This document shows positions 6,543 to 58,384 of a DNA stretch of 58,673 nucleotides, piece by piece (the first letter of the stretch is position 1; every line of letters starts with the position of its first letter). The translations under genes were made by a program, and so were the position numbers. The notes beneath the pieces were generated by a model, which worked only from the letters and a program-made list of their open reading frames with translations, was not told where the DNA came from and did not search any database. Source of the stretch: a virus; IMG/VR virus record IMGVR_UViG_3300036945_001121, positions 1 through 58,673 of that record. One strand, 5' to 3'.

Positions 6543-7561
6543 AGTCGTTTTATCAAATTACCTTTTTTATCAAAAATTAAAGTAATATGTGTATAACCTA
6601 TCTTTTCAGCAGCTTCTTTTTTAGCAATGTTGCGATCGATGTCTAGGTTATAAGTGTAATCACTTTTTACTTCAACCAAACAATTAAATTTCGGTATAAA
6701 AATATCAGGAAAATACACCCTATCTTTACCTTGATGGTTGTAAGGAATATTAAGATTATAAACATCATTACCTGCAAGTATATCAGTAACAATTACATCA
6801 TCAAAATGCTCTAGGATATATCGGATACCATACTCTTCATAACCACGTAAATGTTGAAACTCTACACCTTCTATTATAGTGGTTTTATACTTGAACATAG
6901 ATTTTTGAGCCTTCTCAAAAACTTCAGGTAGTTGCATAGTGCTAACCACACCGTATTTATTTAGATTTTTCTGTTTAATGTAGTTTTTAGTGTATTCAGA
7001 AGACTGTGTTTCTTTACATGTTCTAAACTTAATACCATTACGTTTTAATAGTAATCGAATAGTACCATGAACAACATTATATTTTTGTGCTAACTCAACA
7101 CAACCTACACCTTGATTATATTCTTCTATAATTTTTTGAATTATGTCAGGACCTTTAATTTTCTGACCCCAAGGTCTAACTGATAATGCAGATTGAATTT
7201 CAGAACGTGTACGTAAAGGTATGCTATTTTCTTTAAGGAATTGCACTAATCTATACTCAGCAATGTTGAGTTGTTTAATGATTTTGTAAAGAGGTATACC
7301 TTGTTGATATAGCAAAGCTCCTTCTTTATATTTTTCTAAGATATTATCATTATAATATAATTTTTGAACTTTGAGATCATTAGCTTCCTCATATGTTCTT
7401 TTTTGGATGTTGTTTTTGATTAGAATTTGATCAACCACATATAGAGAAACAGCGTATTTGCGAGCTAAATCACCAATCGATTCTCCCTGCAAATACGCTG
7501 TTATAATTTCTTCTTCTTTATCTTTAACGTTTTTATGTTTTGCTTTATATATTATACTCAC
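6539..7561 (-). CDS. PD-(D/E)XK homing-type endonuclease with HTH repeats
   Basis: A protein of about 340 residues. The N-terminal half has three helix-turn-helix-like repeats (EEIITAYLQGESIGDLARKY; YKEGALLYQQGIPLYKIIKQ; IIEEYNQGVGCVELAQKYNV), which would read DNA. The C-terminal domain has YFPDIFIPKFNCLVEVKS, a PD...EVK nuclease core, after a NLNKYGVVSTMQLPEV segment common in phage endonucleases. The frame stays open to a TTG at 7594. The GTG at 7561 is preferred because it lies exactly 5 nt from an AATAAATA box. It is convergent with the primase, with a 4-nt overlap. It looks like a selfish mobile endonuclease. Confidence 0.72.
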   Translation of the reverse strand: MSIIYKAKHKNVKDKEEEIITAYLQGESIGDLARKYAVSLYVVDQILIKNNIQKRTYEEANDLKVQKLYYNDNILEKYKEGALLYQQGIPLYKIIKQLNIAEYRLVQFLKENSIPLRTRSEIQSALSVRPWGQKIKGPDIIQKIIEEYNQGVGCVELAQKYNVVHGTIRLLLKRNGIKFRTCKETQSSEYTKNYIKQKNLNKYGVVSTMQLPEVFEKAQKSMFKYKTTIIEGVEFQHLRGYEEYGIRYILEHFDDVIVTDILAGNDVYNLNIPYNHQGKDRVYFPDIFIPKFNCLVEVKSDYTYNLDIDRNIAKKEAAEKIGYTHITLIFDKKGNLIKRL

Positions 7562-7566
7562 ATAAT

Positions 7567-7574
7567 TATTTATT
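7567..7574 (-). promoter_or_regulatory. Late-promoter-like box
   Basis: AATAAATA on the minus strand, ending 5 nt before the GTG at 7561. Its exact spacing is the reason for choosing that start. Confidence 0.6.
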
Positions 7575-7627
7575 TGCTTGTGAGTTGGAATCAACTTAAA
7601 AATAGTAAGTTAATTCCGCAGCAGGGG

Positions 7628-8053
7628 CTACTGACCCTTATATTTACTATCGGCTGCACCTGCTAGGTAACCCTTCATAATTTCTATTAAGGATCCTAAT
7701 TCCATTGCAACTCTTGAAATCTTCTTTGTTTCAGCATCGCTGATCTTCTTAAAGAGTGTTTCAGGTGATGCTGAGTTTAGCTTAGTTTGAATACTTGCAG
7801 AATCGGTACCATTAAGAAATTCTTTAAAGTTTTCCATCTGACCTAACCAGTTTCTTAACTCATCATACATTTGCTTCTGGAATGCTGTTAATTCAGCAGG
7901 TACTTGACCGACTGCGCCTTTTGGTGCATCTACATCAAAATCTTCAGGTGATGTTCCTTTATCTAAAGTTGAAGCCATTGCATCTCTATCTGTGATCTCT
8001 GCTTCATCTTGCTCTAAAAGAAACTTTTGAAATCTTTTCTGATAATTATTCAT
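7628..8053 (-). CDS. Hypothetical late protein with MNNY..F..FL leader
   Basis: This 141-residue, mostly helical, acidic protein opens with MNNYQKRFQKFLLEQDEAE, a leader that resembles those of several other minus-strand genes between 8 and 12 kb. A Pro/Asp-rich linker (residues about 30-50) is followed by long helices (AFQKQMYDELRNWLGQMENF, IMKGYLAGAADS). A perfect T4-type TATAAATA box lies 5 nt upstream. A virion or prohead-core role is plausible but only inferred from these features. Confidence 0.7.
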   Translation of the reverse strand: MNNYQKRFQKFLLEQDEAEITDRDAMASTLDKGTSPEDFDVDAPKGAVGQVPAELTAFQKQMYDELRNWLGQMENFKEFLNGTDSASIQTKLNSASPETLFKKISDAETKKISRVAMELGSLIEIMKGYLAGAADSKYKGQ

Positions 8054-8058
8054 ATTAT

Positions 8059-8066
8059 TATTTATA
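8059..8066 (-). promoter_or_regulatory. Late-promoter-like box (perfect TATAAATA)
   Basis: The reverse strand reads TATAAATA, identical to the T4 late -10 consensus, 5 nt before the ATG at 8053. Confidence 0.7.
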
Positions 8067-8098
8067 TTTAATCAACAAAATATAAAGATGAGTAACTT
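8061..8098. repeat. 38-bp direct repeat, copy 1
   Basis: Positions 8061-8098 match 8535-8572 in the same orientation. The first 13 and last 21 bases are identical and only a 4-nt core differs (AACA against GATT). This copy carries a dead-end ATGAGTAACTT, the start of the gene at 8562, followed by unrelated sequence. Confidence 0.8.
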
Positions 8099-8099
8099 A

Positions 8100-8372
8100 T
8101 TATGTTTTATCACCTTTCTTCCAAGAAATTCTCTTCGTACCTTTTTTATACTTTGATCTTGAATTACATTGAGCCATTGTAGGCCTACATGCAGGGTACC
8201 CTTTTCTTTTTTCACCTTTTTGTCTACCACATGGTTTGCCAGTCTTGCAATCTATCCATCCCTTTCCTTTATTTCTTGAGAACCAACCATGTAACCCTTG
8301 CTTTTTCTCCTTTTCGAATTTTTCTAAAAGAAAATTAACAGCTACATCAAAATTTTTATTAATTTTGCTCAT
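8100..8372 (-). CDS. DUF5872-like basic cysteine-containing protein
   Basis: This 90-residue basic protein contains GLHGWFSRNKGKGWIDCKTGKPCGR followed by KRKGYPACRPTMAQC, a pattern I recognise as DUF5872, found in phages and large viruses; its function is unknown. Four Cys could bind zinc. The ATG at 8372 is chosen over 8387 because it forms ATGA with the upstream gene's stop, which indicates coupling. The N-terminal MSKINKNFDVAVNFLLEKF is another amphipathic leader. It is the second gene of a two-gene cassette between direct repeats. Confidence 0.7.
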   Translation of the reverse strand: MSKINKNFDVAVNFLLEKFEKEKKQGLHGWFSRNKGKGWIDCKTGKPCGRQKGEKRKGYPACRPTMAQCNSRSKYKKGTKRISWKKGDKT

Positions 8373-8533
8373 TTTTTCTTTTTCCATATTTTACCACCAC
8401 GGCAACGAACAATAGCTCCAGATTTATAAGCAGAAGTTTTCTTACCATATACTCGATCTGCTTTTCTTGCGCATCGATCTTTTTTAGTTTTTTCCTCTAG
8501 AATTGACTCTACAAGACTATTAAACGCGTTCAT
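8369..8533 (-). CDS. Small basic protein (DUF6321-like)
   Basis: This 54-residue protein is MNAFNSLVESILEE followed by a Lys/Arg-rich part with RCARKADRVYGKKTSAYKSG and VRCRGGKIWKKKK. This resembles the short DUF6321-type phage proteins with a C..K...Y....SAYASGA..CR layout. The frame is open further upstream, but the ATG at 8533 has a late box at 5 nt and fits the shared leader motif. The strong positive charge suggests nucleic acid binding or packaging with DNA. Function is unknown. Confidence 0.65.
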   Translation of the reverse strand: MNAFNSLVESILEEKTKKDRCARKADRVYGKKTSAYKSGAIVRCRGGKIWKKKK

Positions 8534-8534: not shown

Positions 8535-8560
8535 TTTATATTTAATCGATTAAATATAAA
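8535..8560. promoter_or_regulatory. 26-bp perfect palindrome forming a bidirectional late promoter
   Basis: The palindrome is centred between 8547 and 8548. Each half contains TTAAATA, one reading right to the ATG at 8562 and one left to the ATG at 8533, each 5 nt from its start codon. Confidence 0.7.
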
Positions 8561-8572
8561 GATGAGTAACTT
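8535..8572. repeat. 38-bp direct repeat, copy 2
   Basis: Partner of 8061-8098. This copy is functional: it holds both divergent late boxes and the real start of the gene at 8562. Confidence 0.8.
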
Positions 8573-10943: not shown

Positions 10944-11291
10944 TTATTTCTTTAGTAGTAAGTTACCTGTTTTTGGACACTTTAGTAATGTCACCCCTGT
11001 TCTACCTAAACGCTTAGGTTTACCGTCAAAATTTATACCAAATGTTTGTTTGATATATTGTAGGTCTTGAGGGCCGCAAAGTTGCTGACCACCTCTTACT
11101 TTTAGCTGCTCTATTTTTTGATTTTTAGAGTTATCCTTTTTATATACATCAGCAACTAGATTCTGACGCTGGCGTCTGTAATATCTATCTGTATCTGTAA
11201 ATCCATCTTTACGGTGTCTTGGCCCATTTACATAACGTCGTGTACCTGTTTTGGTAAACATATCGTTATAAAATGTCTTAAAATTGTTCAT
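10944..11291 (-). CDS. Hypothetical basic late protein with MNNFKTF leader
   Basis: A 115-residue protein starting MNNFKTFYNDMFTKTG, rich in Arg/Lys (RYVNGPRHRKDG, RYYRRQRQN), ending TLLKCPKTGNLLLKK. The ATG at 11291 has a CATAAATA box 5 nt upstream. A further in-frame ATG at 11309 lies within that box region and is less likely. It ends 1 nt before the neck gene start and may be translated with it. DNA or capsid interaction is possible from charge alone; no family recognised. Confidence 0.6.
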   Translation of the reverse strand: MNNFKTFYNDMFTKTGTRRYVNGPRHRKDGFTDTDRYYRRQRQNLVADVYKKDNSKNQKIEQLKVRGGQQLCGPQDLQYIKQTFGINFDGKPKRLGRTGVTLLKCPKTGNLLLKK

Positions 11292-11296: not shown

Positions 11297-11304
11297 TATT
11301 TATG
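11297..11304 (-). promoter_or_regulatory. Late-promoter-like box
   Basis: CATAAATA on the minus strand, 5 nt before the ATG at 11291; also the likely promoter for the neck gene. Confidence 0.6.
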
Positions 11305-11360: not shown

Positions 11361-11891
11361 TTATTCAAAAGCTGATGCACCAGCTTTGATCTTAGAAGCT
11401 GAAACCTTATGATTTGAAGGCTTAATTAAAGACTCACCCTTTGAATCAGCAAGTGTACCGTCATTACCTACTTTATCGGTAACCTTTGCATCGGCCTTAC
11501 CTTTTACGGCCTTTACGGTACCAACTTCGTTGTTCTTTGCCTTGTTTAAGCCTTTTTCGAGCTTTGCTTCATCTTTGATAGCATGTCCAATTTCTTCAAC
11601 TTCAGTTGCTTCACCCATTGAGTGTTCTTCATCTTCGTACATTTCTTCATCTTCACTAGCACCTTCTTCGGTACCGACATCTTCTTCAGTTTCGGTAGAA
11701 CCACCATCTACCTGTGCTAAAATATCTCTTAGAAGAGATACATGTTCAGGTGATAATGTAATTGTTACTGTGCCTTCGTCGGATGCTTCTGTATCAGATT
11801 CATCTGCCATATCTACACCAAGTGCCTCTGCATCTTGGAGCTCTTGATCATTCATTACCTCTTCAAACAATTTGTCGAAAATAGATTTCAT
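11361..11891 (-). CDS. Nested in-frame product of the acidic late gene
   Basis: The in-frame ATG at 11891 (176 residues, starting MKSIFDKLFEEVMN) has GATAAATA exactly 5 nt upstream. That is the same arrangement as true starts in this genome, yet the box is also translated (as part of DTINNYM) in the longer protein. The N-terminus fits the shared leader pattern. Either two proteins are made from one frame, or two once separate genes have fused while keeping the second promoter. Confidence 0.5.
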   Translation of the reverse strand: MKSIFDKLFEEVMNDQELQDAEALGVDMADESDTEASDEGTVTITLSPEHVSLLRDILAQVDGGSTETEEDVGTEEGASEDEEMYEDEEHSMGEATEVEEIGHAIKDEAKLEKGLNKAKNNEVGTVKAVKGKADAKVTDKVGNDGTLADSKGESLIKPSNHKVSASKIKAGASAFE

Positions 11892-12194
11892 ATAATTATT
11901 TATCGTATTTGATGCTGTTTTTTCAATACCCTCATCGATTTTTTCATCACTCAATGAGAATTTAGCTATTTCTTTAGATTCTTTACTCGATTTTTTTCTA
12001 GGGTCTAATATATCCTTAACACCATCAGCATTTTCAGGACCTGAATCTTTGTGTTGAAACTTTTTATTTGCTTCGTCATTAAGCTCCTTTGCACCAGTAC
12101 CAGGCTTTGTATTCATTTTTGCTGACTTTTTTTCTAAAATTACGGAATTCTTATATGTATCCCATATTTCAAGAAGATTATTTGATTTAGACAT
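11361..12194 (-). CDS. Acidic low-complexity late protein, probable prohead-core or internal protein
   Basis: A 277-residue protein. Residues 1-100 are Lys-rich with the leader MSKSNNLLEIWDTYKNSVIL. Residues about 102-180 contain MKSIFDKLFEEVMNDQELQD and an acidic run (DEDEEMYEDEE type). The tail is Ala/Lys/Gly-rich. Composition and late control fit a scaffold, core or packaged internal protein, but no family assignment is possible. The start at 12194 has a late box at 5 nt; a longer frame to 12230 would cross the terminase promoter. A second late box and ATG sit in frame at 11891, so a shorter product is likely too. Confidence 0.65.
   Translation of the reverse strand: MSKSNNLLEIWDTYKNSVILEKKSAKMNTKPGTGAKELNDEANKKFQHKDSGPENADGVKDILDPRKKSSKESKEIAKFSLSDEKIDEGIEKTASNTINNYMKSIFDKLFEEVMNDQELQDAEALGVDMADESDTEASDEGTVTITLSPEHVSLLRDILAQVDGGSTETEEDVGTEEGASEDEEMYEDEEHSMGEATEVEEIGHAIKDEAKLEKGLNKAKNNEVGTVKAVKGKADAKVTDKVGNDGTLADSKGESLIKPSNHKVSASKIKAGASAFE
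11897..11904 (-). promoter_or_regulatory. Late-promoter-like box inside a coding frame
   Basis: GATAAATA on the minus strand, 5 nt before the in-frame ATG at 11891. Confidence 0.5.
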
Positions 12195-12207
12195 GTAAAT
12201 ATTTAAT
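12194..12207. promoter_or_regulatory. Overlapping divergent late boxes between the acidic gene and terminase
   Basis: One AT-rich core serves both strands: ATTAAATA on the minus strand (12200-12207), 5 nt from the ATG at 12194, and TGTAAATA on the plus strand (12194-12201), 11 nt from the terminase ATG at 12213. Confidence 0.6.
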
Positions 12208-12212: not shown

Positions 12213-13901
12213 ATGATAAAGAATAATCAAAATTACTTAAATAATCCGAATTTACCTGCAGAGGGTGCTGTTCATGAGTATGATGCTGAAAAGGTAAAAG
12301 AGTTAAAAAAATGTCAGCAAAACATATTACATTTTGCTGAGAACTACTTTTTTATACGTAACGTAGATGAAGGTAAAATAAAGATTAATTTACACAAATA
12401 TCAAAAAAGGATATTAAGAAAATTAAGAGATAGTAGGTTCTTTGTTTTGTTATCAGGGAGACAGGCCGGAAAATCTACAATCATGACAATATATGCACTC
12501 TGGATAGCATGTTTTCAAGAGTGGCAGAATGTTTTAATTGTTGCCAATAAAGAATCTACAGCTATTGAAATTCTTAAGAGAATCAAACTTGCATATGAAG
12601 AATTACCTAACTGGTTAAAGCCGGGTGTTAAAAAATGGGCAGAAACATCTGTTGTCTTTGAAAATGGTTCAGAGATTTTAATATCTACCACAACCAGTTC
12701 AGCTGCAAGAGGTATGTCAATAAATGTTTTAATTATTGATGAAGCTGCGCATATTGAGCCTGCAAGTATGCTTGAAGCTTTTTGGAGATCTGTATTCCCA
12801 GTAGTTTCTTCTTCTAAGAAAGCTAAAATTTTTATGGTATCTACGCCAAATGGTACAGGTAACCTTTTTCATAAGACTTTTACTGAAGCTGAAGCAAGCA
12901 TAAATGGTTGGGGGTTTGATAGAGTAGATTGGAAAGAAGTACCTGGAAGAGATGAGAGATGGAAGAGAGATCAAATATTAGCTATGGGTGACTATAATTC
13001 CTACCTTCAAGAGTTTGAAGCTGTATTTCTTGATAGTGGTGATAGTACTATTAATGAAGAGTTATACGATAGATTGAAGTCTTTTGTAAGAGACCCGCTA
13101 TATATAATGGATGAAGGTTGCTACAAGATATTTGACGAACCTAAAGATAATAGAATATATGTAGCAGGTGTAGATGTAAGTGAAGGTGTTGGTGGAGATT
13201 ACTCAGCTATTAATATATTTGATATAACTAACTTATTAGAGATCAAACAGGTAGCTTATTATGCCAACAATACTATTACACCACATCTTTTTACCAAAAA
13301 GCTTGATGAAGTGCTAACACAATGGGGTAAACCTCTAGTTTGTATTGAACGCAACAATCAAGGGGCACAAGTTGTAGATAATCTAAGGAACATATACAGT
13401 TACGAAAATATAGTATCTTGGGGTGCATCTGAAGCTGGTAGATCAAAATCACAACTAGGTATTATAAATCACACAAATACTAAGCAAAAAGGTGTGGGTA
13501 ATATGAGATATTGGGTTAACACTCTAAGATGTGTGGAGTTTAGAGATATTAATATAGTTAAAGAACTTAAAGACTTTATCAGATACCCAAATGGTACTTG
13601 GGCAGCTAAAAAAGGTGCAAACTATCATGATGATTTAGTAATGTCAATGGTATGGGCACTAATTGTATTAGAAGATTCATTAGTTCAAAAATACTTTGAA
13701 GTTACACGTGTTGATGATAATAGACGCCCACTTGAGATTAAAGCTCTAGACTATGGTATCAAATATAATGTAATGTCGAATAGCATGTATAACGAAACAG
13801 ATAATATAAATAGTGGTATGCCTACAATAATGGGCGGTTTAGTCAGTGATAATTCAGATGAAGTAAACTGGCTGCAAGCTCAAGGATGGAAAACTCTATA
13901 A
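12213..13901 (+). CDS. Terminase large subunit, T4 gp17-like
   Basis: The 562-residue DNA packaging motor. The ATPase domain has Walker A SGRQAGKST (81-89) and Walker B VLIIDEAAH (172-180), with a coupling motif MVSTPNG (208-214). The C-terminal RNase H-like nuclease has VAGVDVSEGVGGDY (D321, D329), CIERNNQG (E379) and YHDDLVMS (D473/D474). This enzyme cuts and drives DNA into proheads with the small terminase (probably the gene at 26951-27433). All catalytic residues are present, and the stop overlaps the next start as TAATG. Confidence 0.96.
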   Translation: MIKNNQNYLNNPNLPAEGAVHEYDAEKVKELKKCQQNILHFAENYFFIRNVDEGKIKINLHKYQKRILRKLRDSRFFVLLSGRQAGKSTIMTIYALWIACFQEWQNVLIVANKESTAIEILKRIKLAYEELPNWLKPGVKKWAETSVVFENGSEILISTTTSSAARGMSINVLIIDEAAHIEPASMLEAFWRSVFPVVSSSKKAKIFMVSTPNGTGNLFHKTFTEAEASINGWGFDRVDWKEVPGRDERWKRDQILAMGDYNSYLQEFEAVFLDSGDSTINEELYDRLKSFVRDPLYIMDEGCYKIFDEPKDNRIYVAGVDVSEGVGGDYSAINIFDITNLLEIKQVAYYANNTITPHLFTKKLDEVLTQWGKPLVCIERNNQGAQVVDNLRNIYSYENIVSWGASEAGRSKSQLGIINHTNTKQKGVGNMRYWVNTLRCVEFRDINIVKELKDFIRYPNGTWAAKKGANYHDDLVMSMVWALIVLEDSLVQKYFEVTRVDDNRRPLEIKALDYGIKYNVMSNSMYNETDNINSGMPTIMGGLVSDNSDEVNWLQAQGWKTL

Positions 13902-14473: not shown

Positions 14474-15158
14474 ACTTTACAATAGTACCCTTTGGGTAGT
14501 TGTGTTTTGTGTTAGGTAAAATTCTTTTTACTACATGTATTCCATGCTGCTTTAATGTGCAAAGTGTAGAGGTTTCAAATCTTGTCTTTTTAAAAAAATC
14601 CTGCTCTGTATGGTATATATCTACACTAGGTCTTCCGCCAGGTATTGTTATTTCTAAATTAATAGGTGTATAATTTTTACGGTTTACTAAATTCTTTTTA
14701 CGACCATCAGATTGCTTTTTATATATCTTTTCTTTTTCCTCTTCAGACTTAGCCTGTAACGTTTGTTTATGGGCTAAATTTCTTATTTGTTGTCTGCTGG
14801 GTGATAATCTTCTTTTGCTATGTATTTTTTGAATCTCTTCCGAGCTCTTAAACTTCATCCAACCACTACCACCTGAATAAGATAACGTTAAGTTAAGACA
14901 TTTATCTTTTAATACGTTCATAGATTGCAATATAAATTCTTCCTCAATATGTATTAAGTGCTCTAATTTAAGACAGGAACATAAAACGGTATATCTAAAA
15001 GTTTGATGTTTATTAAAGACATTTTGCATCTTCTTGTTAACGTGTGTGCCCTTGATTAACCCTCTTACATGTTGTCTTCTTCTTTCTTCAGGGCCTTTTT
15101 TATTATATGTTGATCCTATGTATTCATAATCATCTATATTTATCTTATATATCCACAT
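14454..15158 (-). CDS. GIY-YIG homing endonuclease
   Basis: A 234-residue protein. The catalytic domain opens with IYKINIDDYEYIGST (a degenerate GIY, then YIG), continues with RRRQH and the downstream E in LIHIEEEFILQ. Residues about 120-165 (IHSKRRLSPSRQQIRNLAHK...SDGRKKN) look like NUMOD3-type DNA-binding motifs, and the last 60 residues may be an HTH. It lies in opposite orientation between tail genes, has its own late box, and is probably a selfish insertion. An effect on neighbouring virion genes is not indicated. Confidence 0.78.
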   Translation of the reverse strand: MWIYKINIDDYEYIGSTYNKKGPEERRRQHVRGLIKGTHVNKKMQNVFNKHQTFRYTVLCSCLKLEHLIHIEEEFILQSMNVLKDKCLNLTLSYSGGSGWMKFKSSEEIQKIHSKRRLSPSRQQIRNLAHKQTLQAKSEEEKEKIYKKQSDGRKKNLVNRKNYTPINLEITIPGGRPSVDIYHTEQDFFKKTRFETSTLCTLKQHGIHVVKRILPNTKHNYPKGTIVKFIEVQK

Positions 15159-15163: not shown

Positions 15164-15171
15164 TATTTATT
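15164..15171 (-). promoter_or_regulatory. Late-promoter-like box
   Basis: AATAAATA on the minus strand, 5 nt before the GIY-YIG start at 15158. Confidence 0.6.
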
Positions 15172-15222: not shown

Positions 15223-15230
15223 CATAAATA
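15223..15230 (+). promoter_or_regulatory. Late-promoter-like box for the sheath gene
   Basis: CATAAATA, 8 nt before the ATG at 15239. An AAGGGAG run lies just upstream of the box and would not be in a transcript starting after it. Confidence 0.6.
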
Positions 15231-17767: not shown

Positions 17768-17914
17768 ATGAGACCTTATAAACATGATCCTGATGCATGT
17801 CGTAATAAATCGAAACGGGAAAGAATAAAAGAAACAAGGGCTAAGCGCAATAGACGTAGATTTTATATACAAGGTTCCTATAGAAACGACTGGTCTGAAC
17901 ACGCCCGCAAATAA
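17768..17914 (+). CDS. Small, very basic protein
   Basis: A 48-residue ORF starting MRPYKHDPDACRNKSKRE, with about a third of its residues Arg or Lys and one Cys. It fills most of the gap between sheath and tube genes. Its stop codon overlaps the AATAAATA box of the next gene. There is no close late box before it (only AATATTT next to the ATG). Base composition fits coding, but no homology is recognised, so it remains a candidate. Confidence 0.45.
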   Translation: MRPYKHDPDACRNKSKRERIKETRAKRNRRRFYIQGSYRNDWSEHARK

Positions 17915-17917
17915 ATA
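17910..17917 (+). promoter_or_regulatory. Late-promoter-like box
   Basis: AATAAATA, 8 nt before the ATG at 17926. Confidence 0.55.
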
Positions 17918-17925: not shown

Positions 17926-18123
17926 ATGAGCATATATACAGGACAAACAGTATACTTTTTTACAAAATTTAGCACAGAAGAAAAATCAGGTATTTTAGAA
18001 GAACAGACATCTTTAGGATTTAAGATTAGTGGAACATGGTACTCTACAGGTGATATAACTATTAAGAACGTTCTTTTAGATAGCAAAATTCATTCAAATA
18101 ATAGTCAATTATTGTTCGGGTGA
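17926..18123 (+). CDS. Small hypothetical beta-rich protein
   Basis: A 65-residue protein (MSIYTGQTVYFFTKFSTEEK..., ending LLFG) placed between sheath and tube genes under its own late box. The strand pattern suggests a small barrel. No family recognised. A minor tail component is possible from position only. Confidence 0.55.
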   Translation: MSIYTGQTVYFFTKFSTEEKSGILEEQTSLGFKISGTWYSTGDITIKNVLLDSKIHSNNSQLLFG

Positions 18124-18130
18124 TTAAATA
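18123..18130 (+). promoter_or_regulatory. Late-promoter-like box for the tube gene
   Basis: ATTAAATA, 9 nt before the ATG at 18140; it overlaps the stop region of the previous ORF. Confidence 0.55.
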
Positions 18131-18929: not shown

Positions 18930-18936
18930 CTAAATA
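18929..18936 (+). promoter_or_regulatory. Late-promoter-like box
   Basis: ACTAAATA, 5 nt before the ATG at 18942; begins in the stop codon of the preceding gene. Heads the baseplate hub run. Confidence 0.6.
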
Positions 18937-21396: not shown

Positions 21397-21404
21397 ATTA
21401 AATA
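21397..21404 (+). promoter_or_regulatory. Late-promoter-like box
   Basis: ATTAAATA, 5 nt before the tape measure ATG at 21410. Confidence 0.62.
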
Positions 21405-24170: not shown

Positions 24171-24177
24171 TTAAATA
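24170..24177 (+). promoter_or_regulatory. Late-promoter-like box
   Basis: ATTAAATA, 5 nt before the ATG at 24183; it begins in the last base of the gp48-like stop codon. Confidence 0.62.
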
Positions 24178-29735: not shown

Positions 29736-29743
29736 TATTTATT
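29736..29743 (-). promoter_or_regulatory. Late-promoter-like box
   Basis: AATAAATA on the minus strand, 5 nt before the ATG at 29730. Confidence 0.62.
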
Positions 29744-29765: not shown

Positions 29766-29773
29766 TGTAAATA
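29766..29773 (+). promoter_or_regulatory. Late-promoter-like box for gp25
   Basis: TGTAAATA, 5 nt before the ATG at 29779; 22 nt from the opposite box at 29736-29743, making a compact divergent pair. Confidence 0.6.
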
Positions 29774-30266: not shown

Positions 30267-30274
30267 ACTAAATA
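30267..30274 (+). promoter_or_regulatory. Late-promoter-like box
   Basis: ACTAAATA, 5 nt before the ATG at 30280; no purine-rich ribosome site precedes the gene. Confidence 0.65.
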
Positions 30275-35422: not shown

Positions 35423-35430
35423 TGTAAATA
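35423..35430 (+). promoter_or_regulatory. Late-promoter-like box
   Basis: TGTAAATA, 7 nt before the ATG at 35438. Confidence 0.5.
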
Positions 35431-38731: not shown

Positions 38732-40431
38732 ACATTTATAATTACACAGAAGGTGATACGTTTACCTATAACGGGTCTGCATATACAGGTTTTTATAACC
38801 TGAAAGACAATATTGCATATGTTAATAGATATTATACAAATACTTCCGCACAATTACAGAACCAATCTAACATTTTAAATGATTTTATTATCAACGAAGG
38901 ATATTTTAACTATACCCCGCTCACAGATACATCGTTACCGTATAACGAACAGGATATAACCTTTAGCAGTAATGAAATCGTAAATTCGAATTCGATTAAT
39001 TTAAAAATTGGTAAAATCATTAGTAATTTTTTCGATTTATACAGACGATGCTCTGCATTAACTAATAACTTACCGAATGGTTATACCGCCTATGCGTCTG
39101 TTACTTCAAACGGAGGCACCTTATTAAACTGGAAATCATCAGCTAACTCCGGTGCATATGGTATACAGTCTGTAAACCCGCAACTAACTGCAATAAGTGA
39201 TATATTATTAGTAAAGAATTTTTACGGTGATAATCTAAACGTAGTAACACAGACACCAAGCGCATATTTCATATTTAATTTTAATAATCAATTTAATACA
39301 TTTAGAGCAGTTGCATCTGCAACTGCGGTAGACGCAACTTCAAAAATAAACTTCTTAAATATATCTTCAATAGATGCAGATAGCAACGGTAACTTATATA
39401 TTGCAGATAAGGATAATAAACAGGTTTATAAGATTAGTATTAACTCAACACTCAATAATAGTAGAGTTTCTTTAAATAACCCGAAATTAGTGCACATAAT
39501 AGGTGGTTTGATTGAACCATCTGTTGTACGTTATATTGACGATTTATTATACGTCTATGATAGATCTTCTTTTACAGTATACATATACAACTCAAAGATG
39601 ACGTTTACTACAAAATACGTTAATAGTAAAGTATTTCAAACAAACGAACCCTGTTATATAGAGAAAGATGTAAATGGAAACTTATATATACTGACCAAAA
39701 CAGGTGTAATTGTAAAATCGTCACCTTTATTAGATACTACAGCAGAGGTTGTTAGTACGAATATCATTCTTGATATAGGCGAATATTGTAATAAAATCAA
39801 AATATCATATAATGATAGTAACATTGTATATGTTAGTACAACTAAAAATGTATATAAGCTATTCTTAAACAAATTACAGAATAAAATAGGCAAATTTATA
39901 TGGGGTAATACCACCATATCTTCTGTATCAAGCCTTTCATTTTCTAGTATAATTACAGATAATAATTACGATTATATCATGATATATGATACCAATAGAT
40001 TTATGCTGTTTCAAGAGCAAAATGATCTAACAAGTACATTACAAAAGAACCATTTTAGTATATACAATGAGAGTAATATTTTACTACAAAAAGATTACGT
40101 TAATAACATAACGTTTAATAGAATGTTATATAAGTTGCTATACAATCATGATATATTTGTATCTTTTATTCAGTCTAAGTTATCATATAATTATACAAAT
40201 TATGATCTACTACTCGATAGCGTTTCTGTACTATCTGTAGACGATGTATCTAATATAAGAAAAGAAAAGACACTCGATTATTTTGTAGGTGTAAATGAAA
40301 ATATATCACCCCAAGTTGTAAATCGTGTTTTTAAGAAAATACTTGATTATCAACATACAATATTAAGTATTATTGAACCAACAATTATTAATACCAAGTA
40401 TTCAACAACACAAGTTATACCATTTAATTAA
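38728..40431 (+). CDS. Virion structural protein with NHL-like propeller
   Basis: A 567-residue protein. The middle part (INFLNISSIDADSNGNLYIADKDNKQVYKI, PCYIEKDVNGNLYILTKTGVIV) has the D..GN.Y...........I repeat of NHL-type beta propellers. The C-terminal 130 residues are helical (NRMLYKLLYNHDIFVSFIQS; RKEKTLDYFVGVNENIS; VNRVFKKILDYQHTILSI). Together with the preceding gene it may form a fibre or baseplate arm complex. Function is inferred from place and fold only. Confidence 0.58.
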   Translation: MNIYNYTEGDTFTYNGSAYTGFYNLKDNIAYVNRYYTNTSAQLQNQSNILNDFIINEGYFNYTPLTDTSLPYNEQDITFSSNEIVNSNSINLKIGKIISNFFDLYRRCSALTNNLPNGYTAYASVTSNGGTLLNWKSSANSGAYGIQSVNPQLTAISDILLVKNFYGDNLNVVTQTPSAYFIFNFNNQFNTFRAVASATAVDATSKINFLNISSIDADSNGNLYIADKDNKQVYKISINSTLNNSRVSLNNPKLVHIIGGLIEPSVVRYIDDLLYVYDRSSFTVYIYNSKMTFTTKYVNSKVFQTNEPCYIEKDVNGNLYILTKTGVIVKSSPLLDTTAEVVSTNIILDIGEYCNKIKISYNDSNIVYVSTTKNVYKLFLNKLQNKIGKFIWGNTTISSVSSLSFSSIITDNNYDYIMIYDTNRFMLFQEQNDLTSTLQKNHFSIYNESNILLQKDYVNNITFNRMLYKLLYNHDIFVSFIQSKLSYNYTNYDLLLDSVSVLSVDDVSNIRKEKTLDYFVGVNENISPQVVNRVFKKILDYQHTILSIIEPTIINTKYSTTQVIPFN

Positions 40432-40434
40432 ATA
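40427..40434 (+). promoter_or_regulatory. Late-promoter-like box
   Basis: ATTAAATA, 5 nt before the ATG at 40440; starts inside the stop of the previous gene. Confidence 0.62.
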
Positions 40435-43746: not shown

Positions 43747-43754
43747 TATTTATA
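43747..43754 (-). promoter_or_regulatory. Late-promoter-like box (perfect TATAAATA)
   Basis: Minus strand TATAAATA, 5 nt before the fibre ATG at 43741. Confidence 0.7.
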
Positions 43755-46734: not shown

Positions 46735-46742
46735 TATTTATC
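46735..46742 (-). promoter_or_regulatory. Late-promoter-like box
   Basis: GATAAATA on the minus strand, 8 nt before the ATG at 46726; it overlaps the stop of the upstream gene. Confidence 0.5.
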
Positions 46743-48143: not shown

Positions 48144-48151
48144 TATTTAAG
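48144..48151 (-). promoter_or_regulatory. Late-promoter-like box
   Basis: CTTAAATA on the minus strand, 5 nt before the ATG at 48138; it begins at the stop of the PKD gene. Confidence 0.6.
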
Positions 48152-50737: not shown

Positions 50738-51421
50738 TTAATTATTTATGTTAGGTGGTTTGCTATAGTGTTTTAATAATACACTTACATCCCAAAACAT
50801 ATACGGTGTGTAGTACCTTTCAAAAGAAACCTTATTCCAATATAAAACCACTAACTGTCTAGGTTTCTTACCTGTCATTATAGAGTATATATATGCATAT
50901 AATGATAATTGAAGGCTGTATGTAGTATACTTACAGTTGTGCAGGTGTTCTAGAGGTTTTAACAAAGTTTCATTGTATTTGTTATAAAAATCAAACTTCT
51001 TATTCGTTTTAAGGTCTAAGACATCAAAAGATTTATCATCAATATCTACGATAATATCCGACGTTCCCGCTATTTTGTATGTATCATTCCACAACATAAC
51101 TTCACTACGCACATCTATTCTTTTATATGGGAATACTTTTTGGAACTCATTTATAATATTCTGTTCGTCAACAGTACCGTTCTTTAAGTAGTTCTCTACG
51201 ACTGAGTGAACATCTTTACCAAAAGCACAAGCGTTTTCTGTATTTTGTTTCCACTCCTCTTTTACTACTTGCTGTGATACACCTCGTTTCTTAGCTACTA
51301 TTCTACTAAAAAAATCAACATCAAACGGTTTCTTATATTTACCTAAAAGTTGCGAAACAGATTGGTATACTTCACCATTATTATTCGAATAAGTATGTGT
51401 TTGAGGATCAAAATTAATCAC
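50738..51421 (-). CDS. PD-(D/E)XK nuclease, RecB/Cas4-like
   Basis: A 227-residue protein with the nuclease core HSVVENYL (His/Glu helix, about 72-79), GTSDIIVDI (GxxD, about 118-126), VLDLKTNK (DxK, about 132-139) and the YSLQLSLYAYI helix (QxxxY). It resembles the RecB-type exonucleases carried by many phages. It begins with GTG at 51421; the ATG at 51423 is out of frame. It ends 1 nt before gp6, in the region covering the gp6 promoter. Its role in recombination or DNA processing is inferred. Confidence 0.72.
   Translation of the reverse strand: MINFDPQTHTYSNNNGEVYQSVSQLLGKYKKPFDVDFFSRIVAKKRGVSQQVVKEEWKQNTENACAFGKDVHSVVENYLKNGTVDEQNIINEFQKVFPYKRIDVRSEVMLWNDTYKIAGTSDIIVDIDDKSFDVLDLKTNKKFDFYNKYNETLLKPLEHLHNCKYTTYSLQLSLYAYIYSIMTGKKPRQLVVLYWNKVSFERYYTPYMFWDVSVLLKHYSKPPNINN
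50743..50750 (-). promoter_or_regulatory. Late-promoter-like box for gp6
   Basis: CATAAATA on the minus strand, 6 nt before the ATG at 50736; located in the last codons of the upstream nuclease gene. Confidence 0.58.
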
Positions 51422-51798: not shown

Positions 51799-52041
51799 TT
51801 AATCATCATCAAATTCATCCATAAGTTCAAGTATAGGTTCGTATCCTAAAACAATACAAATTAACTTACCGTCAATTGGTAACTTAAACATTATATCATA
51901 AGGTGTCTTATCTATTTTTACAAGAAAATCCTGTAAAAACTTTTCTTGTAAAAATAGAAGAACCGTACCCCGATCATAGTCGATATGAACATCTTTAGTA
52001 TACTCTTTAACGATATCCACAATCTTGACAAGATTCTCCAT
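51799..52041 (-). CDS. Small hypothetical protein
   Basis: An 80-residue acidic protein (MENLVKIVDIVKEYTKDV..., with strands TVLLFLQ and GKLICIVLG, ending ELMDEFDDD). It shares an AT-rich bidirectional control region with the divergent gene at 52056, and its own late box lies at 5 nt. No family recognised. Confidence 0.55.
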   Translation of the reverse strand: MENLVKIVDIVKEYTKDVHIDYDRGTVLLFLQEKFLQDFLVKIDKTPYDIMFKLPIDGKLICIVLGYEPILELMDEFDDD

Positions 52042-52046: not shown

Positions 52047-52054
52047 TATTTAAT
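52047..52054 (-). promoter_or_regulatory. Late-promoter-like box
   Basis: ATTAAATA on the minus strand, 5 nt before the ATG at 52041. The whole gap to the divergent ATG at 52056 is only 14 nt. Confidence 0.58.
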
Positions 52055-53427: not shown

Positions 53428-53435
53428 ATTAAATA
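53428..53435 (+). promoter_or_regulatory. Late-promoter-like box
   Basis: ATTAAATA, 5 nt before a GTG start at 53441; it begins right after the terminator T-run. Confidence 0.6.
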
Positions 53436-53440: not shown

Positions 53441-53866
53441 GTGAAAATTCGCATTAGAGATCGTAGATATGAAGATATTGGTTTAAAAAATAATAAAGTA
53501 ACCGGTAAACCAATTGCAACTATACAAGATAGTCTAGGTCAACGCGTTATTAATTTTGTTAAAAAATTATCCATAACACCTATTGAGATAAATAAGGCTT
53601 ACGATCCAAAAAAAGAAACTGAATTAGTACAATATTTAGATAGATATATAACAAATAAGTTTATTAATGCTAACCCAAACTTACGTGACAAATTTGGTAT
53701 TATTAAATCTGTTGTTTATAAATATTTTAATTATGAGTTAGTTGAAGATAATCCTAAAACTCAAAGTAATCAAGATAAAATTGAGAGTAAACCAGTTACA
53801 GCAAAACAACTTGAACTCAGTTTTGAGCAGTTTTATAATAGGGTTTTTGAGAAATATAGGAACTAA
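53441..53866 (+). CDS. Hypothetical protein (GTG start)
   Basis: A 141-residue basic protein (starting MKIRIRDRRYEDIGLKNN...). The GTG start is supported by the late box at exactly 5 nt. Middle helices (VINFVKKLSI, ELVQYLDRYITNKFI) and a C-terminal helix (LELSFEQFYNRVFEKYRN) are visible. A structural or assembly role would suit its late control; no family recognised. Confidence 0.55.
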   Translation: MKIRIRDRRYEDIGLKNNKVTGKPIATIQDSLGQRVINFVKKLSITPIEINKAYDPKKETELVQYLDRYITNKFINANPNLRDKFGIIKSVVYKYFNYELVEDNPKTQSNQDKIESKPVTAKQLELSFEQFYNRVFEKYRN

Positions 53867-54555: not shown

Positions 54556-54563
54556 AATAAATA
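54556..54563 (+). promoter_or_regulatory. Late-promoter-like box
   Basis: AATAAATA, 6 nt before the ATG at 54570. A direct match of ACATCGGACATATA lies around it and the start codon region. Confidence 0.58.
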
Positions 54564-54569: not shown

Positions 54570-56012
54570 ATGTCCGATGTAATTGTATCTCAAGATATCG
54601 ATAACTTTATGCAAGCAGCTAATAAAGCTGCAGCGCGCACTAACCTTGGGGTTGGAGCTAATGATGATGTTACATTTAATACGCTTTATATACCAGGTAG
54701 CGCTGTTGTAAGTGGTGTTGTTCAGGCCGGGCTTATACAAATATACGGTCAGGCTCAGTTTTTAACTGCCCAAATAGGTCTTAATGCTACTCAATTATAT
54801 GGTTCAGCAAACAGTAGTGTTGAAGTTACTCTCCCAACTGAAAGTGGTACTTTAGTAACAACAGATCAATTAGCTCTCAAAGCACCAATTCTGAACCCTG
54901 TATTAAGCGGTACTACAATTACTAACAATTTATCTACCCAAACACTTACAGCAACTAATATAAATGTAAGGAGCCTATCTGCTCAAACCCTTACAGTAGA
55001 TGGTGAAGTAATTGCATTAAGTAGCGTTTACACACCGGCAGTATTGACCAATTTTTTATCTCTATATGGACAGGCTGATATATTAAGTATAAGGCTTGGA
55101 CTTAATGTCACAGAATTATATGGTTCAGCAAATAGTAATGTCGTAGTTACTCTCCCAACTGAAAGTGGTACTTTAGCAACAACAGAGCAATTAGCTCTCA
55201 AAGCACCAATTTTAAATCCTGTATTAAGCGGCACTACAATTACTAACAATTTATCTACCCAAACACTTACAGCAACTAATATAAATGTAAAAAGTCTATC
55301 CGCTCAGACACTTACAGCAACTAATATAAATGTAAAAAGTCTATCCGCTCAGACACTTACAGCAACTAATATAAATGTAGGAAGGGATTTAGAATGGAAC
55401 GGATATAATAGGTTTTCACCTAAAATTAGTGCAAATGCATATAATCTTCAAGATGGCCAAATATATATAGATGGACCAACATTATTTGATACCACAACAC
55501 TATCAGAACTAACAGATGTAACATATACTATTTTTGTAAACGGTAATACGTATAGTATAGGTGTTTCATCTAAAGGTTTGACAGCATTTGATGCAAATAT
55601 AAATAGATTAGTAGCTTCATCTGTAGATACCAATAATCTAACAACTACTAATGCAAATGTAAGTGTAATAACAGCTGCTAATGCAAATATAAATACATTA
55701 ACAGCACGAGAGGTTATATCTGACGTAAACGTAACCAATATAACAACCACTAAAACATTTAGCTATTCTGCAGACAACTCTAAGATATTCAACTTTAACA
55801 CTGCATCTGGATCAATATCAGCAATCTTTCCAGGTATCTTGCCAAACGGATTTAACGTGGGAATAACAAATATTGGTACAAATACAGTTTACATATCATC
55901 TACACAAGTAAATAATTTATGTGCTACAAGTAATAAAAATAGTACACAATTTAGCGGTATATACATATATAAAACAAATAATGCTCTATACGGTATCGGA
56001 AAGTTTAATTAA
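54570..56012 (+). CDS. Repetitive tail fibre protein
   Basis: A 480-residue protein. The N-terminus (SQDIDNFMQAANKAAARTNLGVGANDDVTFNTL) is the phage-fibre motif R..LG.....D.V.F. The shaft has two copies of a block of about 88 residues spaced 107 residues apart (LYGSANS...LPTESGTL...LALKAPILNPVLSGTTITNN) and a 15-residue repeat LTATNINVKSLSAQT in tandem. The C-terminal part (FNFNTASGSISAIFPGILP) is a small beta-rich tip. The repeats suggest a triple-stranded fibrous shaft that varies in length by recombination. Confidence 0.8.
   Translation: MSDVIVSQDIDNFMQAANKAAARTNLGVGANDDVTFNTLYIPGSAVVSGVVQAGLIQIYGQAQFLTAQIGLNATQLYGSANSSVEVTLPTESGTLVTTDQLALKAPILNPVLSGTTITNNLSTQTLTATNINVRSLSAQTLTVDGEVIALSSVYTPAVLTNFLSLYGQADILSIRLGLNVTELYGSANSNVVVTLPTESGTLATTEQLALKAPILNPVLSGTTITNNLSTQTLTATNINVKSLSAQTLTATNINVKSLSAQTLTATNINVGRDLEWNGYNRFSPKISANAYNLQDGQIYIDGPTLFDTTTLSELTDVTYTIFVNGNTYSIGVSSKGLTAFDANINRLVASSVDTNNLTTTNANVSVITAANANINTLTAREVISDVNVTNITTTKTFSYSADNSKIFNFNTASGSISAIFPGILPNGFNVGITNIGTNTVYISSTQVNNLCATSNKNSTQFSGIYIYKTNNALYGIGKFN
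54742..55326 (+). repeat. Large internal duplication in the fibre gene
   Basis: About 264 bp at 54742-55005 recurs at 55063-55326, offset by 321 bp, with high but imperfect identity. It reads through in frame. Confidence 0.8.
55266..55384 (+). repeat. 45-bp tandem repeats in the fibre gene
   Basis: Units start at 55266, 55311 and 55356 (the third is partial); the first two are identical. A diverged copy lies at 54945. Confidence 0.85.
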
Positions 56013-56086: not shown

Positions 56087-56094
56087 CATAAATA
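56087..56094 (+). promoter_or_regulatory. Late-promoter-like box
   Basis: CATAAATA, 10 nt before the ATG at 56105, so a short leader would remain here. Confidence 0.45.
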
Positions 56095-56104: not shown

Positions 56105-56728
56105 ATGACTATTAAAGACTTTTATGTTTTCTGTTGTAACCAACAAGATTCTACAGTGGAATATACATATATCATGGTATCAGGTGCTGGTGTTGCTTTA
56201 GGAAATGGTTTATATACTCTTACTGGGACACGCAATGATAAACCTTATTACACTAATTTATCAAATTATGAAATTTATTACAGATCATTTGATGCAAAAT
56301 GGGTAATAGAGGTATCAACAGAAATATTGTATGTAACCACACAACCAAATTTAACAACTCCATTGAATACTACATGGCAATCTACTTTAGATGCATTCAA
56401 CCCACCACCAGTTGAAGTATCAGTTGCATATTCTGTTCAAGTATCTGGAGCAGGAACAGCCGCGGCAAATGGAATATACATTTTTGACGGTGTCTATAAT
56501 AATTTTCCTTTTTATGTTATGGATGGAAACGTATTTTACAGTATCTATAAGTCTGATTCAGGAGCAAATGGCGTATGGATTATAGCTTCTGAAGCTACAC
56601 AACTATATGAAAACAATTTGTCTGGATTGATTTCTCCATATAATATAATCAACCCATGGACTAGATCTTTTACTTCAGTATTTGGCGCCTCTCCTGCACC
56701 TACTGTTACTCCATATCCAATACAATAA
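56105..56728 (+). CDS. Virion-type protein with duplicated domain
   Basis: A 207-residue protein made of two related halves: VSGAGVALGNGLYTLTGTRNDKPYY...WVIEV (about residues 24-72) and VSGAGTAAANGIYIFDGVYNNFPFY...GVWIIA (about 113-160). Each is a small beta-rich unit that recurs in phage and bacterial surface proteins with a SGAG..NG.Y pattern. The end is Pro/Thr-rich (PAPTVTPYPIQ). It follows the fibre gene and may decorate the tail. Function unknown. Confidence 0.6.
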   Translation: MTIKDFYVFCCNQQDSTVEYTYIMVSGAGVALGNGLYTLTGTRNDKPYYTNLSNYEIYYRSFDAKWVIEVSTEILYVTTQPNLTTPLNTTWQSTLDAFNPPPVEVSVAYSVQVSGAGTAAANGIYIFDGVYNNFPFYVMDGNVFYSIYKSDSGANGVWIIASEATQLYENNLSGLISPYNIINPWTRSFTSVFGASPAPTVTPYPIQ

Positions 56729-56902: not shown

Positions 56903-56925
56903 AGAATTTCCATATTCTATATGAT

Positions 56926-56958: not shown

Positions 56959-57009
56959 ATTTAGCCAAGGAACATACTTAAAATATTTTTACAATTTAGT
57001 TAATACAAC

Positions 57010-57180: not shown

Positions 57181-57181
57181 T

Positions 57182-57275
57182 AGGAGTAAGGTAGCTGCTG
57201 GGTCGTGCTGCACTTGACTGTAAATCAAGTCCCTCTGGGTAAACATCGCAGGTTCAATTCCTGCTACTCCTACCA
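57182..57275 (+). tRNA. tRNA-Tyr (GTA)
   Basis: Acceptor AGGAGTA/TACTCCT, anticodon stem CTTGA/TCAAG with loop CTGTAAA giving GTA, long variable region as expected for tRNA-Tyr, T arm GCAGG-TTCAATT-CCTGC, and an encoded CCA (57273-57275). Confidence 0.9.
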
Positions 57276-57281
57276 TTTTTC

Positions 57282-57367
57282 GCCGCTGTGACAATAATAC
57301 AAATTGGTACAGTTACTACGTTGAGAACGTAGAGTTTTTGCAGATTCGAATTCTGCCAGCGGCACCA
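57282..57367 (+). tRNA. tRNA-Leu-like (GAG), unusual arms
   Basis: Acceptor GCCGCTG/CAGCGGC, anticodon stem CTACG/CGTAG with loop TTGAGAA giving GAG, T arm GCAGA-TTCGAAT-TCTGC, encoded CCA. The variable region is only about 7 nt, whereas Leu tRNAs have a long arm, and the D arm is extended and pairs poorly. It may be remodelled, decaying, or recognised differently. Confidence 0.65.
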
Positions 57368-57371
57368 TTTT

Positions 57372-57437
57372 TTTGGGAGCGACTACACCGCTTTTAGCTG
57401 AATATGCGACGAATATTGTCGATAAAACTCTCAAAAA
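57372..57437 (+). other. Structured stretch between tRNAs, no assignment
   Basis: TTTTGGGAG pairs with CTCTCAAAA over about 9 bp, enclosing a CGAC/GTCG hairpin. No CCA end, T loop or anticodon arm is visible. It may be the relic of a tRNA or a processing element. Confidence 0.25.
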
Positions 57438-57457
57438 TTCATTTCTTGCCTTTTTGT

Positions 57458-57534
57458 TCCCTCATAACTTTAATTGGTAGAGTACCCGCCTTGTAAGCGG
57501 GAAGTTGTCAGTTCGAACCTGACTGGGGGATCCA
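57458..57534 (+). tRNA. tRNA-Thr (TGT)
   Basis: Acceptor TCCCTCA/TGGGGGA (one G-T pair), anticodon stem CCCGC/GCGGG with loop CTTGTAA giving TGT, T arm GTCAG-TTCGAAC-CTGAC, encoded CCA. D loop contains TTGGTA. All arms are regular. Confidence 0.93.
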
Positions 57535-57567
57535 CTTATTACTATCTCTTGAAAGCTCCATTTTATG

Positions 57568-57575
57568 AATAAATA
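57568..57575 (+). promoter_or_regulatory. Late-promoter-like box
   Basis: AATAAATA, 5 nt before the HNH ATG at 57581, so the endonuclease is expressed apart from the tRNAs. Confidence 0.6.
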
Positions 57576-57580
57576 ATTAA

Positions 57581-58384
57581 ATGTATAAATTCAACCAAGA
57601 AGAATTCGATAACGCGACAAATAAAGATTCAGTTACTTGCTGGTGTAAAGATTGTGGAACAGAAACCAAAAGACTTAAAATTTATATTAAGCATAATATA
57701 AAACATAACGTAGATAAATTTGATTGTCCTTCTTGTAAAGAAAAAGAAAAGCAAAAAATAATAGAAGAAAATACAAAAGTATGCCTGACATGTAACATTT
57801 CCTTTTTTAGTTACGAAAATAAATTTTGCTCTAATAGTTGTGCTGCTACAACAATCAACAAGACAAGAGTTTGTAACAAAGTTCATAAAAATACAGAAAA
57901 TTTTATTAGCAATAATCGCTTCCTTAAAAGAGGTCCTGCATTAAGATATAAAGAATACAAAAAGTGTTTAAATTGTGAACGAGACTTCTTACCGGTAGCA
58001 AAAACGTCAATATTTTGTGAACAAATATGCTCTTCTGAACACAGAAAAAACCAGCGTGAAAAAGAATTAGAACCACTATTAATCGAAGGAAAGGTTATTT
58101 CTCAAAATATTGAAACAAATAACACAATATATAGAAGATACTTAATTCGCAAATTTGGACCAAGGTGTATGAAATGTGGTTGGTCCGAAGTAAATCCTTT
58201 TTCAGGTAAAGTACCGATCGAGTTAGAACATAAAGATGGTAATTGCATTAATAACATTCCAGATAATTTAGAGTTGTTGTGTCCAAACTGCCATTCACTA
58301 TCTCAATTTTATAAAGGTGCTAATAAACGAGAAGGTGGATCTCCAAGATATAAACAATGGAAAAAATACTTCTCTATCAAATAA
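57581..58384 (+). CDS. HNH endonuclease with several zinc knuckles
   Basis: A 267-residue protein. The N-terminal half has a series of Cys pairs: CWCKDC, CPSC, CLTC...FCSNSC, and CLNC...FCEQIC, all likely zinc-binding and DNA-reading. The C-terminal HNH is CMKCGWSEVNPF...PIELEHKDGN...NLELLCPNCHSL (about residues 200-243), with the catalytic H in LEHKDG. It separates tRNA-Thr from tRNA-Asp, a typical place for a mobile endonuclease. Confidence 0.8.
   Translation: MYKFNQEEFDNATNKDSVTCWCKDCGTETKRLKIYIKHNIKHNVDKFDCPSCKEKEKQKIIEENTKVCLTCNISFFSYENKFCSNSCAATTINKTRVCNKVHKNTENFISNNRFLKRGPALRYKEYKKCLNCERDFLPVAKTSIFCEQICSSEHRKNQREKELEPLLIEGKVISQNIETNNTIYRRYLIRKFGPRCMKCGWSEVNPFSGKVPIELEHKDGNCINNIPDNLELLCPNCHSLSQFYKGANKREGGSPRYKQWKKYFSIK

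Follow-up and report, generated by a model that had tools for sequence, protein, structure and literature searches.

The window analysed here, a 58,673-nucleotide stretch comprising positions 1 to 58,673 of the IMG/VR virus record IMGVR_UViG_3300036945_001121, is 99.998% identical to part of a 209,282-bp virus record (hereafter G001) and belongs to a marine T4-like phage. The T4 core gene set is present (gp4, 6, 13, 15, 17–21, 23, 25, 32, 41, 43, 44, 46, 47, 55, 61, 62, uvsW and uvsX), although no isolate was listed above about 42% identity for gp17, gp18 or gp23. Copies of the hexamer TAAATA lie a short distance upstream of start codons on both strands of the window, as follows, with the gap being the number of nucleotides between the last A of the box and the start codon.

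7567–7572 (-), TAAATA box, gap 5 to GTG at 7561
8059–8064 (-), TAAATA box, gap 5 to ATG at 8053 (a second box at gap 11)
8539–8544 (-), TAAATA box, gap 5 to ATG at 8533 (54-aa ORF)
8551–8556 (+), TAAATA box, gap 5 to ATG at 8562, divergent with the box at 8539–8544
11297–11302 (-), TAAATA box, gap 5 to ATG at 11291
11897–11902 (-), TAAATA box, gap 5 to ATG at 11891
12200–12205 (-), TAAATA box, gap 5 to ATG at 12194
12196–12201 (+), TAAATA box, gap 11 to ATG at 12213 (terminase large subunit gp17)
15164–15169 (-), TAAATA box, gap 5 to ATG at 15158
15225–15230 (+), TAAATA box, gap 8 to ATG at 15239 (tail sheath gp18; conserved at gaps 5–10 in relatives)
17912–17917 (+), TAAATA box, gap 8 to ATG at 17926
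18125–18130 (+), TAAATA box, gap 9 to ATG at 18140 (tail tube gp19)
18931–18936 (+), TAAATA box, gap 5 to ATG at 18942
21399–21404 (+), TAAATA box, gap 5 to ATG at 21410
24172–24177 (+), TAAATA box, gap 5 to ATG at 24183 (weak gp53-like)
29736–29741 (-), TAAATA box, gap 5 to ATG at 29730
29768–29773 (+), TAAATA box, gap 5 to ATG at 29779 (baseplate wedge gp25)
30269–30274 (+), TAAATA box, gap 5 to ATG at 30280
35425–35430 (+), TAAATA box, gap 7 to ATG at 35438
40429–40434 (+), TAAATA box, gap 5 to ATG at 40440
43747–43752 (-), TAAATA box, gap 5 to ATG at 43741
46735–46740 (-), TAAATA box, gap 8 to ATG at 46726
48144–48149 (-), TAAATA box, gap 5 to ATG at 48138
50743–50748 (-), TAAATA box, gap 6 to ATG at 50736 (baseplate wedge gp6)
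52047–52052 (-), TAAATA box, gap 5 to ATG at 52041
53430–53435 (+), TAAATA box, gap 5 to GTG at 53441
54558–54563 (+), TAAATA box, gap 6 to ATG at 54570
56089–56094 (+), TAAATA box, gap 10 to ATG at 56105
57570–57575 (+), TAAATA box, gap 5 to ATG at 57581

A preliminary description, made from the sequence alone, had listed 20 starts with a gap of exactly 5 nt and a further 10 with gaps of 6–11 nt, and this observation is confirmed, as every one of the 30 spacings is correct. Two of the listed starts carry caveats: 56804, one of the 10 with wider gaps, opens only a 32-aa ORF, and the 54-aa ORF at 8533 is in frame with a longer mechanically called ORF. The first two bases of the octamer proposed there (ATTAAATA/AATAAATA) are only weakly preferred, the conserved core being TAAATA. 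The accompanying claim that most box genes lack a Shine-Dalgarno (SD) sequence is also right, since 0 of 72 box genes have a 4-base SD core and the genome as a whole shows no SD peak.

In the window, 16 of 64 mechanically called ATG genes have the box at gap 5, compared to about 0.08 expected. When every TAAATA before an ORF of at least 60 aa is counted, gap 5 holds 18 ATG, 2 GTG and 1 TTG, while gaps 0–4 hold no ATG and only one GTG and one CTG, and other gaps hold 0–3 ATG each. In G001 the box lies exactly 5 nt before the first ATG of 42 genes (0.30 expected), with 11 genes at gap 6, a tail extending to gap 11, and 2 in total at gaps 0–4. Random spacing across the genome had been put forward in advance as a result that would overturn the interpretation, and it is not what the genome shows. 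The pattern read backwards gives 9 hits against 51, and chance or AT-richness is rejected by offset controls, by this reversed pattern and by the relatives. The peak recurs in three other near-complete genomes (39, 54 and 30 genes; 0.16–0.30 expected across the four), again with almost nothing at gaps 0–4, and in hundreds of relatives whose flanks have diverged. Among relatives collected with gp18 and gp20 there are 195 unique starts at gap 5 and 117 at gap 6, and in ortholog pairs with both boxes at gap 5 the flanks are only 34% identical. Over the four genomes the gap-5 starts comprise 188 ATG and 27 GTG against 4 TTG and 1 CTG.

The box marks structural genes and not replication genes. It precedes gp13, 18, 19, 21 and 25 in 4/4 genomes and gp20 in 3/4, and none was found before gp32, 41, 43, 44, 46, 47, 61, uvsW or uvsX. 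There is no dominant -35 element, although a minority of box genes (9 of 72) carry TTGA 16–18 nt upstream of the box. The preliminary description had also named the presence of late sigma and co-activator genes elsewhere in the genome as a check. A gp55 late sigma factor is encoded in G001 at 122373–122822 (-) (phrog_234, E 7.7e-28), but the gp55 of this clade ends in an acidic tail and lacks the hydrophobic clamp-binding C-terminus that is kept by T4, HTVC008M and other T4-like gp55 proteins. The co-activator gp33 was not found by phmmer in the four genomes or by hhalign; as this protein is small and divergent, the search does not tell us whether it is absent. A candidate gp45 sliding clamp at G001 102535–103263 (-) has no Pfam or phmmer match and gave only a weak lead by hhalign, but its predicted structure (pLDDT 81) matches PCNA-fold clamps with E about 5e-12 and TM 0.7–0.8. 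It is therefore a clamp by predicted fold, and its role in transcription was not examined.

Genes without the box display further promoter classes set in the same register, namely sigma70-type promoters (TTGA at -34, TATAAT at -12) and a GGAAC-N5-TATAAT class. In contigs covering the gp55 region, TTGA lies at gap 30 and 29 in 28 and 15 cases respectively and TATAAT at gap 5 and 6 in 12 and 17, while in gp18/gp20 contigs TATAAT lies at gap 6 in 34. Two examples lie within the window.

307–334 (+), non-late promoter of the gene at 341: TTGA 307–310 (gap 30), GGAAC 318–322 (gap 18) and TATATT 329–334 (gap 6), with predicted +1 at the A of ATG 341
5477–5481 (+), GGAAC element, gap 20 to ATG at 5502 (DNA primase gp61)

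The late element of T4 spans 8 bp, from -13 to -6 (PMC2988020), and a gap of 5 nt therefore places +1 on the first base of the start codon. We propose, with a probability of roughly 0.8, that TAAATA is the core of a T4-type late promoter recognised by host RNA polymerase carrying the phage gp55, and that its distance from the start codon is fixed so that the first transcribed base is the A of ATG (or the G of GTG) at gap 5, or lies 1–6 nt upstream of it at gaps 6–11. In this view the mRNAs are leaderless or nearly so and are translated from a 5'-terminal or near-terminal AUG without an SD sequence, other genes do the same through the sigma70-type and GGAAC promoters, and downstream genes, which often overlap the previous stop codon, are presumably reached by translational coupling. 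The interpretation given in the preliminary description, that the boxes are late promoters of probable leaderless mRNAs, is thus supported, although it was too narrow in considering the late class alone and the arrangement is not confined to this phage. Our analysis directly establishes the geometry of the motif, its conservation and gene-class specificity, the absence of SD sequences and the presence of gp55 and a clamp-fold protein, whereas the position of +1 (its register borrowed from T4, no RNA 5'-end data being available), translation from a 5'-terminal AUG and the early or middle timing of the sigma70-type class are inferences. The altered gp55 tail and the failure to find gp33 indicate that the late machinery is not a plain copy of that of T4, and about a quarter to a third of box genes have gaps of 6–11, which would leave leaders of 1–6 nt.

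It is conceivable that TAAATA is instead an AT-rich translation-initiation element, with a spacing that reflects ribosome geometry as for SD, since its range of 5–11 nt overlaps that of SD sequences and some substitute could be expected in genomes that lack them. We consider this unlikely, as a ribosome element should serve replication genes as well as structural genes, and as the distribution has a hard edge at 5 with a one-sided tail, unlike the bell-shaped SD peak of T4 and HTVC008M. In addition, the same motif sits at gap 5 in about 12 genes of HTVC008M, which otherwise uses SD, it matches the target of the encoded gp55, and other genes carry sigma70-type -35/-10 pairs in the same register. 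Also improbable, though slightly less so, is that the boxes are late promoters whose transcripts carry very short leaders of variable length, through start-site slippage or a register different from that of T4. Gaps of 6–11 are common (33 of 75 close boxes in G001) and some start-site scatter is usual for bacterial RNA polymerase; however the mode at gap 5 with nearly nothing below it and the purine-first start codons point to +1 on the codon itself, and leaders of 1–6 nt would still leave no room for SD, so the translational consequence is almost the same. Least likely is that the box is a -10 element read by the primary sigma factor of the host, with no late-phage specificity. TAAATA does resemble a -10 hexamer and a few box genes have TTGA at a suitable distance, but most have no -35, a distinct TATAAT class with TTGA at sigma70 spacing occurs on other genes, the box tracks T4 late genes, and gp55 is present.

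The arrangement shares with T4 late transcription (TATAAATA, gp55/gp33/gp45; PMC2988020, PMC7892883) the TAAATA core, its -10 position, the association with structural genes, the gp55 sigma, the clamp loader gp44/gp62 and a clamp-fold protein. In T4, however, the boxes mostly lie 17–28 nt or more from the ATG, with SD in the leader, so an ordinary T4-like arrangement is rejected. P-SSM2, S-PM2, Syn9, S-CAM7 and KVP40 likewise show no clear gap-5 excess over the reversed-pattern control. The cultured pelagiphage HTVC008M (KC465899) has about 12 annotated genes with TAAATA exactly 5 nt before ATG, including gp2, gp3, gp4, gp25, gp48-like and tape-measure genes, but shows strong SD usage at most genes, and its proteins are distant from this clade. 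One survey of pelagimyophages reported that late-promoter prediction was unsuccessful (PMC7029224).

Leaderless mRNAs with a 5'-terminal AUG (GUG in some hosts) and no SD are known from bacteria and from lambda cI (PMC9031893, PMC4633059, PMC3898074), but these cases are single phage genes or fractions of a host transcriptome, whereas here promoter placement implies leaderlessness for most first genes of a lytic phage, including virion genes. We know of no phage genome described in this way, and searches of open-access literature found no description of a leaderless T4-like phage. Leaderless mRNAs are usually treated as exceptions in phages, and a lytic virus making its virion proteins from such transcripts would show that this route can support very high expression, would reveal something about the ribosomes of the host, and would correct start calls and late-promoter annotation in a widespread uncultured group; HTVC008M makes part of the idea testable in culture. 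The evidence also allows a broader reading, which we consider somewhat more likely than not, in which a whole abundant lineage of T4-like phages has abandoned SD translation, with all of its promoter classes (gp55-type, sigma70-type and GGAAC/extended -10) starting RNA on the start codon and the major capsid gene as an exception.

The host is unproven. One metabolic gene points to Flavobacteriales, as the phage FolE2 is closest to Flavobacteriales MAGs (three hits only, at 54–60% identity), and the absence of SD usage and the aquatic setting are shared with SD-less Bacteroidia and their bS21-encoding phages (PMC9976891, PMC9723584). However, a search for phage-carrying MAGs found nothing, no bS21 was found in the loci examined, and flavobacterial promoter grammar does not match the phage, whose non-late promoters are TTGA/TATAAT and not TAnnTTTG, while the flavobacterial contig tested shows TAnnTTTG at leader-length spacing. 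We therefore assign no host.

The major capsid gene gp23 is an exception to the general pattern. In G001 it was initially counted as a box gene, but relatives show a conserved leader at this position, with an SD-like AAAGGA, and its TAAATA at gap 7 is therefore probably incidental. Consensus folding of the whole gp23 leader gave no structure, whereas per-sequence folding of the insert did, and the leader contains a covarying hairpin.

The window, a 58.7-kb virus record, is 99.998% identical over its length to part of a 209,282-bp virus record, here designated G001 (window position = 102126 minus G001 position, opposite strand). The preliminary description listed 30 starts preceded by a TAAATA box, and this observation held when each coordinate was read back: 20 have TAAATA exactly 5 nt before an ATG or GTG (gap 5) and the other 10 have gaps of 6–11 nt; only 56804, which opens a 32-aa ORF, looks doubtful as a gene. 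With genes called mechanically and the first ATG of each ORF taken as the start, 16 of 64 genes in the window and 42 of 291 in G001 have the box at gap 5, compared to 0.08 and 0.30 expected, while gaps 0–4 together hold only 2 in G001.

Random spacing of the box across the genome had been named in advance as an outcome that would count against the proposal, and it was not what we found; neither chance nor AT-richness explains the pattern. The backward pattern gives 9 hits against 51 in G001, and three further near-complete genomes (G011, G014 and G009, whose sheath proteins are 46–62% identical to that of G001) give 39, 54 and 30 genes at gap 5, with 0.16–0.29 expected. In contigs carrying gp18 or gp20 relatives there are 195 unique starts at gap 5, 117 at gap 6, 40 at gap 7 and only 8 at gap 4; the relatives are metagenomic contigs, some from overlapping populations, and unique upstream sequences were counted to reduce this effect. 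In ortholog pairs with both boxes at gap 5 the upstream flank is only 34% identical while the box stays. Across the four genomes the start codon at gap 5 is ATG in 188 cases, GTG in 27, TTG in 4 and CTG in 1, as expected if the first base of the codon must also serve as a purine +1.

In T4 the 8-bp late element occupies -13 to -6 (Geiduschek and Kassavetis, PMC2988020), so that gap 5 places +1 on the first base of the start codon. The interpretation offered in the preliminary description, that these are probable leaderless late mRNAs, is supported; the position and distribution of the boxes were observed directly, whereas the +1 register is taken from T4 and no RNA data were available. The box precedes gp13, 18, 19, 21 and 25 in all four genomes and gp20 in three, but none of gp32, 41, 43, 44, 46, 47, 61, uvsW or uvsX. 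A search for gp55-like and gp33-like genes had also been suggested beforehand, and it returned gp55 (G001 122373-122822, minus strand; phrog_234, E 7.7e-28) but not gp33. A clamp could not be found by sequence; however, a conserved 242-aa protein near gp32 is predicted to have a PCNA/gp45 fold (pLDDT 81; PDB matches with E about 5e-12 and TM 0.7–0.8). The gp55 of this clade (orthologs in sequences L282-L330) lacks the hydrophobic C-terminal tail of T4 and HTVC008M, which is the clamp-binding one in T4, and ends instead in a conserved acidic tail. This suggests a different link between late sigma and clamp, and coupling of late transcription to replication may therefore differ, although this is an inference. 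In G014, gp55 (500 aa; L388:3528-5030, plus strand) and the terminase large subunit (861 aa; L389:12543-15128, plus strand) seem to carry inteins, with Intein_splicing/Hint matches at E about 1e-6 to 1e-5 that lie partly below the Pfam cut-off.

The arrangement is not confined to the late genes. Non-box genes show TTGA peaking 30 nt before ATG (28 at gap 30 and 15 at gap 29 in the gp55-region contigs) and TATAAT at gaps 5–6 (12 and 17 in the same contigs, and 34 at gap 6 in gp18/gp20 contigs). With +1 on the A of ATG, these are a -35 at -34 to -31 and a -10 at -12 to -7, and the gp55 gene itself has such a TATAAT in many relatives; the timing of this sigma70-type class is inferred from gene content only. 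A third class reads GGAAC-N5-TATAAT-N6-ATG, often with TGn before TATAAT (L234, L236, L250, L262 and others, with GGAAC at 318-322 and 5477-5481 in the window), and is clear in G001 and G011 but weak or absent in G009 and G014; the factor that reads GGAAC is not known. G001, G011 and G014 show no Shine-Dalgarno (SD) peak and G009 at most a slight one, whereas T4, HTVC008M and other T4-like gp55 contigs have one. Thus not only the late programme but many other first genes appear leaderless.

Two exceptions are informative. The major capsid gene gp23 in relatives has no adjacent box. In the group nearest the window phage it has an intergenic leader (upstream of gp23 in sequences L041-L120; about 165341-165410 on the minus strand of G001, outside the window) with nearly constant flanks, about CCTGAGTTACC and CTTGGGGTCGA, around an insert that differs in 28 sequences yet always folds back on itself as a covarying hairpin, followed by AAAGGA(A/G) and ATG; it has no Rfam match. 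In some distant relatives (L153, L154, L173 and L193) the gp18 box is followed by an ATG that opens an 11–12-codon mini-ORF whose stop lies next to the gp18 start, which looks like a leaderless mini-cistron translationally coupled to gp18.

In comparison, T4 puts most late boxes 17–28 nt or more from ATG and uses SD, and P-SSM2, S-PM2, Syn9, S-CAM7 and KVP40 show no clear gap-5 excess over control. HTVC008M, a cultured SAR11 phage, has about 12 annotated genes with the box exactly 5 nt from ATG, several of them baseplate, tail or head genes, within an otherwise SD-using genome. Leaderless mRNAs are well known in bacteria (PMC9031893), but within an open-access library we found no report of a phage genome organised this way.

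The phage FolE2 is closest to those of Flavobacteriales MAGs (54–60%, three of three hits), and Bacteroidia ribosomes fail to recognise SD (PMC9976891). No host was assigned, however, as a flavobacterial contig uses TAnnTTTG promoters at leader-length spacing, which the phages do not use. FolE2 is one of four genes in G001 that make up a likely 7-deazaguanine pathway, possibly for DNA modification. In the same genome gp46 is split, a 77-aa N-terminal piece being separated from the rest by about 1 kb, while relatives have one ORF of about 601 aa; a search of positions 1-3000 of L022, one of the two sequences covering this region (L021/L022), gave no Rfam intron match. The positions of these genes, and of two further features of the window, are as follows.

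G001 110536-111288, 129065-130060, 132837-133469 and 134560-135330: QueC, FolE2, QueD-like and QueE-like genes.
G001 118018-121337, minus strand: split gp46, with the N-terminal piece at 121104-121337 and the rest at 118018-120042.
Window 54780-55379: internal repeats (about 90–100% identical pieces) inside the 480-aa gene 54570-56012.
Window 57182-58607: four tRNA genes (Tyr, Thr, Asp, Pro) at the window end.
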